In this document: positions 9,019 through 11,939 of the stretch, in pieces
How the letters are laid out: each line of letters begins with the position of its first letter
Numbering within the stretch: position 1 is the first letter of the stretch
NCBI RefSeq assembly: GCF_002104995.1
Contig: NW_024468251.1
Coordinates: 434,001 to 498,000 of the forward strand
Origin: Linderina pennispora
Lineage: Eukaryota > Kickxellomycota > Kickxellomycetes > Kickxellales > Kickxellaceae
Direction: 5' to 3'
Length of the DNA stretch: 64,000 bases
The notes under the pieces: generated by a model
Seen by the model: only the letters and a program-made list of their open reading frames with translations
What the model was told of the DNA's origin: nothing
Database searches by the model: none
Translations under genes and position numbers: made by a program

Positions 9019-10690
9019 CTAGGCCTGCGCCCCAGACTCGATGTACCCCTCGTTGCGCGAGGATCCGTCCTGGTTGCTGCTGCTGTACCGGTATCCGCCG
9101 CGCCCCTGGTTGGTGTATCCACTGCCGCGGTTGCTGTACCCGCCGCGCCCACCGCGCCAGCTGCCGCCGCCACTGTTGTTATTGTTGTTATAGTTGTGGT
9201 GATACCCGCCACGGCTGCCCTGGTGCCCGCCACGATACCGGTTGTACCGGTACCGGCTCTGCTCGGCTGCCGTCTGCCCGAATGTCTCGTAGTTCTGCTG
9301 GCGCTCGGCGTTGAGCCGGCTCCGGCGCTCCTCGGGGCTCAGCCCGTGCTCGAGCATCTGGATCCGCTCCTTGGTCTCGCACGAAATGTCGTCAAAGAAC
9401 GACTTCTTGGGTACGTACGCTGTTGACGACACGTCGACGTTCTTGGCTGTGGGCACGGAGCCGTTGCTCAGCGGCGACTCGTCCTCCTCAGTGACATCCA
9501 CCGAGAGCTTGGCAAACTCCTTGGCAATGTCGTCCTTGTTCAGCTTCGAGTTCGACGACTCAAAGTCAAAGTCTGACTCGGGGATCTCGATCCGGCGCCC
9601 ACCCTGGCGCTGCTGGTAGCCGCCCCGCCCGCCGCTGTTCTGGTATCCCCCACGGCCGCGGTAGCCGCCACGGTAGTTGCTGCCGTTCTGGTAGCCGCCG
9701 CGTCCACGGTAGCCGCCACGGCCGCCCTGCTGTTGCCGCTGGTAGCCGCTCTGGCGCTGGAAGGTATCCTATGGCCATTGAGTATGGTGTTAGTAGTCAC
9801 GTCAACAACAACGAATAGCTGCAGTCCTAGAGCTACTGTACGCGTTGGTGGGGGGTTCAGGAGGAAGGCAGAATTTCTGTCCACAGCCGCACAAAAGAGT
9901 GCGTTAAGACACGAAGTCGGAAAAACTTCTCAGTTGTTTCATCAGGATCACCAAACGGGCAGGAGGCGTGGCCCATGTGACAGGAACGTGTAGCTTACCT
10001 GTTCCTCAGTGGTATCCCTGGTAACCGACTCGACTTGCGTGCCTGTCGGCGCGTCAACAGGAGTGGGTTTGGCAGCAGGTGCAGCAGCAGCAGGTGCCTC
10101 CTGGGAAACAGGGGCCGCCTGCGCCGGCTGCTGCTGGGGCTGCTCCCGCGGCTTGGCCCGGGCCTAAAAGCAATTGGTATACGTAACTCCCAGAATTAGT
10201 GCACAGTCAGCAGTCGCAATTTCCAGAGATTCGAGGCAGGCGAGTCGCTTGGAAGAGTCAGGAGGAAGGCAGAATTTTTGTCAACAGCCGCACAAAAGAG
10301 CGCGTTAAGACACGAAGTCGGAAAAACTTCTCAGTTGTTTCATCAGGTCAAGGCAAATGTCGGGGACAGGCTCAGAGAAAAATTTTCACTACTTACATCT
10401 AGAATCGCCGGGTCGTTCGGCACCTGTGGCGGGGGAGGCGGAGCTGCTGGCTCGGTCTCAAACTGCACGCTGATAACGTCAGTCGCGCGGAACTGAATGT
10501 ACTCGTAAATGTCATTCGACGCCGGAATCTCCTCCAGCGGGTTGCCCTTGCGGCCCTCAGTGCCCATGGAACGCACCTGTTCCAGGGAAATTGTCTGTTC
10601 TTGCTCGTTTACATCGTTGAGTGTGCCCGTGTAGCGAATGCCGCTCTTGGAAATCAGCGAGATCCGGTTGCCGTAAACTGTAGCGCTCAT
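9019..10690 (-). CDS. SCD6: LSM14/Scd6-family mRNP protein, three exons
   Basis: Cytoplasmic mRNP protein that represses translation and promotes decapping in P-bodies (known for Scd6/Rap55/LSM14). Exons by splice signals: 10690-10397, 10163-9999 and 9768-9019, all joined in phase 0, giving 402 residues. The N-terminal LSM domain begins MSATVYGNRISLISKSG. A Gln/Pro/Ala-rich linker is encoded by exon 2. Exon 3 has RGG/RGGY repeats, the FDF box (ESDFDFESS), the FFD box (KKSFFDDIS) and the TFG box (NAERQQNYETFGQ), then a second RGG-rich tail. Both introns (10396-10164 and 9998-9769, about 230 nt each) have GTAAG donors and carry a near-identical 90-nt snoRNA, listed separately. No frameshift. 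Confidence 0.95.
9857..9946 (-). ncRNA. Intronic C/D-box snoRNA, snR52-type, copy 2 (LSM14 intron 2)
   Basis: On the host-gene strand the element starts CC-TGATGA (box C) and ends CTGA (box D). Flanking intron bases 9949-9954 and 9845-9850 are complementary (TTGGTG with CACCAA), forming a terminal stem. The ten bases CTGCCTTCCT, one base upstream of box D, are complementary to the near-universal 18S rRNA sequence AGGAAGGCAG. By the box D+5 rule the modified base is the A equivalent to yeast 18S A420, the target of snR52 (from memory of the yeast snoRNA). The yeast D' guide for 25S U2921 is not apparent. Three mismatches separate it from copy 1; none is in the guide. Confidence 0.85.
10258..10347 (-). 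ncRNA. Intronic C/D-box snoRNA, snR52-type, copy 1 (LSM14 intron 1)
   Basis: Same 90-nt core as copy 2: TGATGA box C, CTGA box D and an identical 18S guide. The flanking stem has a different sequence (GCCTTG side near 10349-10354 against CCAAGC near 10247-10252, with one bulged base). The stem sequence has therefore changed while pairing is kept. It lies about 50 nt from the donor and about 94 nt from the acceptor, the placement usual for spliced-out intronic snoRNAs. Confidence 0.85.
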
Positions 10691-11108: not shown

Positions 11109-11939
11109 TCAGGCCGAGCGCCCGCCGCGGTTCGTCTTTCTGTCGGCCTCCTCGGCCTTTTCAGCCTCGATGACCTTGATGACCTCTTCGATCTCGGTCA
11201 CGCTGGGCGACCTGCTGCCGTCCTTGGTGACGACCAGAATCTCGATGTTCTTGGCGCCCGTCTGCACGACCTCCAACAGCGACTTTACCGCCAGCTTGAC
11301 GGCCTCCTTCTCATCAATGTCGTCCTTTGTAGTGCTTCTCCAAGAACTCGCGCACCGTCTGCGAGTTGCGTCCAATTGAGTTTGCCTTCCACTCGTAGTA
11401 GATGCCCGACGGGTCCGTCTGGAACAGCTTCGGCGTGTTGTCCGGATCAAATCCGACGATAAGCGTTGAAATGCCGAACGGGCGCCGTCCGCCGCTCTGT
11501 GTGTACTTTTGCTGGATCGCCGCAATGTACCGCGTAATGTACTCCACCGAGGGCGGGTCCTCTACTGTCAGCCGGTGGTTCTGGCACTCCAGGCGCGCGC
11601 GGTCGACCAGAATACGTGCATCGGCCACCAGGCCAGCCGATGCAATGAAAATGTGCTCGTCCAGACGGTGGATCTTGCGCATCGTGCGCGAATCCTGCAG
11701 CTTCAGTGCAGCCTTCTTCTCGACGCCCAGCACGACTGAGTCCGAGCCGCGGATGCCGACCTAACGCCGCATGCTATTAGTGACCTGTATGTGCGTGCTC
11801 TCGCAGAATGTCGGCGCTTGCATGAAATTTCCCAGAAACTTACCGTGCACATGCCCTTGCGCACCGCCTCCTGCGCGTATTCGACCTGGAACAGGTGGCC
11901 ATCAGGCGAGAAAATGGTAAGTGCGCGATCGTAACTCAT
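11109..11939 (-). CDS. PRE6: 20S proteasome subunit alpha type-7 (alpha-4)
   Basis: Non-catalytic alpha-ring subunit of the 20S core. Exon 1 (11939-11844) encodes [20 protein letters not shown], the alpha-subunit signature. An 83-nt intron (11843-11761, GTAAGT donor, CACTAAT branch region, TTAG acceptor) follows. Exon 2 carries [25 protein letters not shown] and [11 protein letters not shown], closely matching human PSMA7 and yeast Pre6, with a Lys/Glu-rich C-terminal tail. One +1 insertion near 11326 (within EKHYK/DDIDEK) splits exon 2; otherwise length is normal. The ring position alpha-4 is supported by the N-terminus and the RRPFGIS segment. Confidence 0.93.

Follow-up and report, generated by a model that had tools for sequence, protein, structure and literature searches.

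In yeast, snR52 is an independent gene, whereas the two cores described here lie in the introns of a fungal LSM14/Scd6 gene. In the Rfam family snR52/snoZ13 (RF00335) a single base separates the box D guide, UGCCUUCCU, from CUGA, and the LSM14 cores have this guide in the same register. CD42 of Neurospora crassa is, like the LSM14 cores, fungal and intronic, with a D-box guide for 18S-Am417 and a length of 92 nt, and it is placed in one table row with snR52 and U83; unlike the LSM14 pair, that row is without A/B forms (PMC2780460). According to the same source, 45 of the 55 Neurospora C/D snoRNAs are intron-encoded (CD42 being marked Intron), as are the majority in S. pombe. Two copies of this guide group in one host are also on record: human SNORD83A and SNORD83B occupy introns 5 and 7 of RPL3, and in Suberites (three sponge species) a SNORD83-like RNA is found in two introns of RPP0 (PMC3412847). 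The target of SNORD83 is called unknown there, although rows in PMC2653536 and PMC2780460 list U83 together with snR52 for the 18S site. Chicken GGgCD10 has two intronic isoforms, an 18S target at A-429 and a listing with snR52 and U83a/b; it differs from the LSM14 pair in that the isoforms are in two different hosts and in having a predicted second guide, to 28S (PMC2653536). Nearly all snoRNA paralogues in chicken derive from intragenic duplication, which that report gives as a usual route for the intronic snoRNAs of this species.

We analysed a 64,000-nt stretch of genomic DNA (the window) from Linderina pennispora, a member of the Kickxellomycotina, together with its 26.2-Mb assembly. Judging from the sequence, it is very likely that the introns of the LSM14 gene in this window give rise to two copies of an snR52/U83-type box C/D snoRNA, duplicated in cis and guiding modification of 18S A426, and that at least one copy, probably both, is functional. 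The features are as follows.

9019..10690, minus strand: LSM14/Scd6 host gene, ATG to stop, with 3 coding exons and 2 introns, 402 aa
10164..10396, minus strand: intron 1, 233 nt, GTAAGT...TTTTAG
9769..9998, minus strand: intron 2, 230 nt, GTAAGC...CATAG
10258..10347, minus strand: snoRNA copy 1 core in intron 1, box C to box D, 90 nt
9857..9946, minus strand: snoRNA copy 2 core in intron 2, box C to box D, 90 nt
10340..10345, minus strand: box C TGATGA, copy 1
9939..9944, minus strand: box C TGATGA, copy 2
10281..10286, minus strand: weak C'-like TGTTGA, copy 1, putatively C'
9880..9885, minus strand: weak C'-like TGTGGA, copy 2, unlike that of copy 1, putatively C'
10263..10272, minus strand: guide CTGCCTTCCT, copy 1, complementary to 18S 423-432, D+5 = A426
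9862..9871, minus strand: guide CTGCCTTCCT, copy 2, with the same 18S 423-432 target
10258..10261, minus strand: box D CTGA, copy 1
9857..9860, minus strand: box D CTGA, copy 2

The spliced open reading frame of the host gene is 1209 nt long with a single terminal stop, and the 402-residue product contains the Pfam domains LSM14 (E 1.5e-24) and FDF (E 3e-13). Along its entire length it matches the deposited L. pennispora protein DL89DRAFT_255661 with 100% identity, and thus both introns fit the published gene model. The initial annotation described the host as an RNA-silencing factor. The term is a loose one, since Scd6 is reported as a translation repressor that is also an activator of decapping-dependent decay (PMC6307823).

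Upstream of LSM14, on the same minus strand (window positions 11109-11399), is a gene whose C-terminus resembles a proteasome alpha subunit; its last 96 residues match PDB chains of proteasome subunits alpha type-4 and type-7, with a best E-value of 3.4e-10. The matches listed for the LSM14 product include proteins of Linderina macrospora, Coemansia, Kickxella and Dipsacomyces, and among them are two Coemansia entries (P0013 and P0018) in which proteasome and LSM14 domains are joined in one protein. The joined entries suggest that this adjacency is a conserved neighbourhood, and they are themselves probably merged gene models.

The two introns had been described as sharing near-identical 90-nt cores in otherwise unrelated sequence, and both parts of this description held. 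The cores differ at 3 sites (core positions 47, 65 and 70), and their identity begins two bases 5' of TGATGA and ends at the final base of CTGA. Outside the core we detected no residual homology by local alignment, with the observed score being equalled in 408 of 1000 shuffles for the upstream flanks and 575 of 1000 for the downstream flanks. Global alignment gave borderline results (54 and 72 of 1000 shuffles reach the score), which might be explained by splice signals common to both introns. The shared unit is the snoRNA rather than the intron, and the sharp ends of the core reflect either constraint on the whole RNA or insertion or conversion of a copy as a unit. A query with 121 nt of intron 2 DNA matches just two places in the assembly, and a third copy of the core was not found.

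Each core starts with box C and ends with box D, TGATGA and CTGA being found at the ends of both copies as had been proposed. There is a minor departure from the consensus in that the base preceding TGATGA is C in both copies, where a purine is usual (RUGAUGA). No D' guide of at least 8 nt in register was found in either core against 18S, 5.8S and the first 647 nt of 28S. Both copies retain a 5-bp hairpin, CGCRC/GTGCG, in which the G to A difference at core position 47 turns a G-U pair into an A-U pair. The folding energies of the cores and the flanked cores are not clearly below those of shuffled sequences (z of -1.79, 0.58, -0.90 and -0.74). It had further been claimed that the stems flanking the two cores differ in sequence yet both pair. 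The external stems do differ in sequence, and they are similarly located, with the first paired base 6-7 nt after box D by our reading; their pairing, however, is marginal for copy 2 in intron 2 (57 of 2000 shuffles pair as well) and not significant for copy 1 in intron 1 (266 of 2000), and the stem argument is weak for this reason.

These structural details bear on a variant nested within the preferred explanation, in which both cores are box C/D snoRNAs but one alone is functional and the other is drifting towards a pseudogene. The unlike C'-like elements (TGTTGA and TGTGGA) and the weak external stem of copy 1 would fit such a drift, whereas boxes C and D, the guide, the spacing and the intron geometry are intact in both copies. 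All three differences between the copies (3/3) also fall outside the boxes and the guide, although this would happen by chance with a probability of about 45%. We consider the variant unlikely, with function of both copies being the probable state.

For the guide we applied the rules that the modified base is the fifth upstream of box D and that 10-21 nt are available for pairing (PMC8162545). Target sequences were taken from the rDNA contig (C138), which provides 18S, 5.8S, 5S and only the first 647 nt of 28S; a 5S rRNA gene is seen in this contig upstream of 18S on the opposite strand (L004 1672-1790, minus). The 10-nt guide CTGCCTTCCT, one base 5' of box D, pairs without mismatch with positions 423-432 of the L. 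pennispora 18S itself, and the D+5 base of both cores falls on A426, which bears out the proposed register on the assembly's own 18S. In copy 1 no other stretch of 9 nt or longer is complementary to the 18S, the 5.8S or the first 647 nt of the 28S; the further rRNA complements listed, whether in copy 1 or in copy 2, have 8 nt. The assignment of the target to the snR52 site also stands: A426 is equivalent to yeast A420 on the basis of the UGCCUUCCU Rfam alignment, the Neurospora 18S-Am417 table row and the yeast numbering.

We scanned both strands of the window for NTGATGA and CTGA combined with a D-register rRNA guide of at least 9 nt, and obtained 2 matches, which are the two cores. The same scan of 40 windows simulated with an order-1 Markov model gave 27 matches in total (22 of 9 nt, 4 of 10 nt and 1 of 11 nt), and a single match is therefore not very rare on its own, 5 of the simulated ones having at least 10 nt. 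When cores were resampled at order 1, a register match of at least 10 nt was seen in 173 of 20000 cases. What exceeds chance is that a preserved repeat carries this combination at both of its ends, with the two copies in introns and the guide on a site listed for snR52/U83.

Of the 6 occurrences of the pattern TGCCTTCCTN{0,2}CTGA that the assembly contains, 2 are the LSM14 cores; the reversed control pattern occurs 0 times, and about 2.3 occurrences are expected with equal bases. We rejected the other 4 loci as guides for the same site as no NTGATGA was found within ~160 nt upstream; two of them have ATGAGGA at 164 nt (L006) and GTGAGGC at 88 nt (L010). Cmscan of these 4 loci and of the U14 locus described below gave 0 matches at the gathering score. 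Yeast snR52 is also listed for 25S Um2921 (PMC3511168), whereas a second guide was not found in the LSM14 cores against 18S, 5.8S and the first 647 nt of 28S. The A-loop pattern around this second target (25S U2921) was not found in the assembly at 3 mismatches, the rDNA contig holding only the first 647 nt of 28S.

U14 targets an 18S stretch that overlaps the snR52-type target, and the motif CTTCCT is common to both 18S complements, such that the LSM14 cores might be taken for U14 homologues rather than snR52-type guides. This is extremely improbable, however, as the 18S pairing in the LSM14 cores ends with one base left before box D and a separate U14 candidate is present in the genome (C157:827390-827486, minus; L011 1501-1597), with a guide, CTTCCTTAGAAG, that matches the L. 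pennispora 18S (CTTCTAAGGAAG). The candidate scores 54.1 bits (E 1e-9), below the cut-off of 64, and by our reading of the sequence it is intronic, being flanked by a GTAAGG donor and, on the other side, a CTGAC...TTTAG acceptor. The 18S stretch CTTCTAAGGAAG presumably differs from its yeast counterpart, and the match is consistent with co-change of the candidate guide and its target. U14 was one of three families sought besides snR52, in a targeted search rather than a genome survey; searches with SNORD24 and SNORD27 gave matches neither in the L. pennispora genome nor in 14 controls and are uninformative.

At the Rfam gathering score the window gives no match. A permissive search over 801 bases lists 16 matches, and snoZ13_snr52 (RF00335) is the top-scoring family on both copies, over its full length and with UGCCUUCCU-N-CUGA aligned. 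A covariance-model search of both introns, which had been suggested as a check, thus returned the expected family as the best-scoring one, but far short of the 47-bit cut-off, with 18.7 bits (E 1.8) for one copy and 17.7 bits (E 3.3) for the other. Lower E-values (1.4 and 1.7) are given by two unrelated families that match other parts of this stretch, and copy 1 is matched by snR56 as well (17.5 bits, E 8.9). A genome-wide search with RF00335 gave 2 other loci, one with 21.6 bits (E 2.46) and one with 19.9 bits (E 6.8), and the LSM14 cores are not among them; at that lax threshold the model also matches 6 of the 14 control genomes, which are prokaryotic. Neither of these loci (L012 and L013) contains GCCTTCC, and both were rejected as snR52 guides. 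They are closely alike (~1480-1620; contigs C1 and C218) and look like a dispersed repeat. We take the RF00335 match to the cores as a pointer and not as proof: it shows a guide in common with yeast snR52 rather than common descent.

The weak Rfam scores and the unremarkable folding are what might be expected if the cores were not snoRNAs at all, being instead a splicing element shared by the introns or a dispersed repeat. We regard this as most unlikely, given that only 2 copies were found in the assembly, that their ends coincide with boxes C and D and that the guide is in the D+5 register.

Within their introns the cores are separated from the 5' splice site by 49 and 52 nt and from the 3' splice site by 94 and 88 nt. 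Candidate branch points, CTAAT and TACTAAC, place the branch A at 62 and 67 nt after box D, and further branch-like motifs are found at 51 and 55 nt. For the intronic C/D RNAs of Neurospora the distance to the 5' splice site is mostly 41-60 nt (PMC2780460), and the optimum for snoRNP assembly is reported to be ~50 nt before the branch point (PMC8162545). The call of C/D snoRNAs with an snR52-type target is accordingly upheld by the boxes, the D+5 position on the organism's own 18S, the intron geometry and a best Rfam match that is below threshold.

The boxes, the guide, its target register, the intron placement and the copy number in the assembly are direct observations, to which the following pathway would conform. 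Both RNAs would be made from the introns of the LSM14/Scd6 pre-mRNA and freed by splicing and lariat debranching, with snoRNP proteins on boxes C and D keeping exonucleases away from ~90-100 nt. The guide upstream of box D would then pair with 18S 423-432, and fibrillarin would methylate the 2'-O of A426, the equivalent of yeast A420. The second copy would have arisen by intragenic (cis-) duplication of the snoRNA unit.

The presence of cores in both introns of one RNA-regulator gene could also be read as a sign that the snoRNAs act mainly in cis, on how the LSM14 transcript is spliced or how stable it is, and guide rRNA secondarily, and effects of intronic snoRNAs on host splicing have been reported (PMC10324135). 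We think this very unlikely, as a guide that pairs perfectly with an already known 18S site accounts for the conservation without a cis function. The co-regulation of snoRNAs and host that the initial annotation raised is purely conjectural. A broader proposal, that LSM14/Scd6 is a dedicated two-intron snoRNA host in Kickxellales, with the dose of the 18S guide tied to transcription and splicing of a repressor gene and the copies perhaps processed differently, is in our estimation very doubtful.

The initial annotation considered an intronic, duplicated form of this guide noteworthy, a view that does not survive comparison with intronic CD42 in Neurospora and with the human U83A/B and Suberites homologues, which are paired in one host. 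Neither the intronic placement nor the presence of a pair in one host is unusual. Among the papers listed from the open-licence literature we found no report of LSM14/Scd6 as a snoRNA host, by title or abstract opening, and none by the same means of snoRNAs in Kickxellomycotina, Linderina, Coemansia or Zoopagomycota, although fungal snoRNA alignments cited in PMC8476143, the main text of which has 0 occurrences of snR52 or Scd6, may cover the lineage. The host gene and the lineage are thus the parts for which no report was found in that literature. The human and Suberites hosts are ribosomal-protein genes, in contrast to LSM14 here. The LSM14 pair adds an early-diverging fungus to the intronic, paired-in-one-host cases of the snR52/U83 guide, and it does so with a host outside the ribosomal-protein genes. 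It agrees with the 'constrained drift' view, according to which snoRNAs shift from one broadly expressed host to another (PMC3511168). The twin snoRNAs open no new mechanism; the guide and the twin-intron arrangement are already known elsewhere, and the LSM14 pair is a new example of an ordinary kind.
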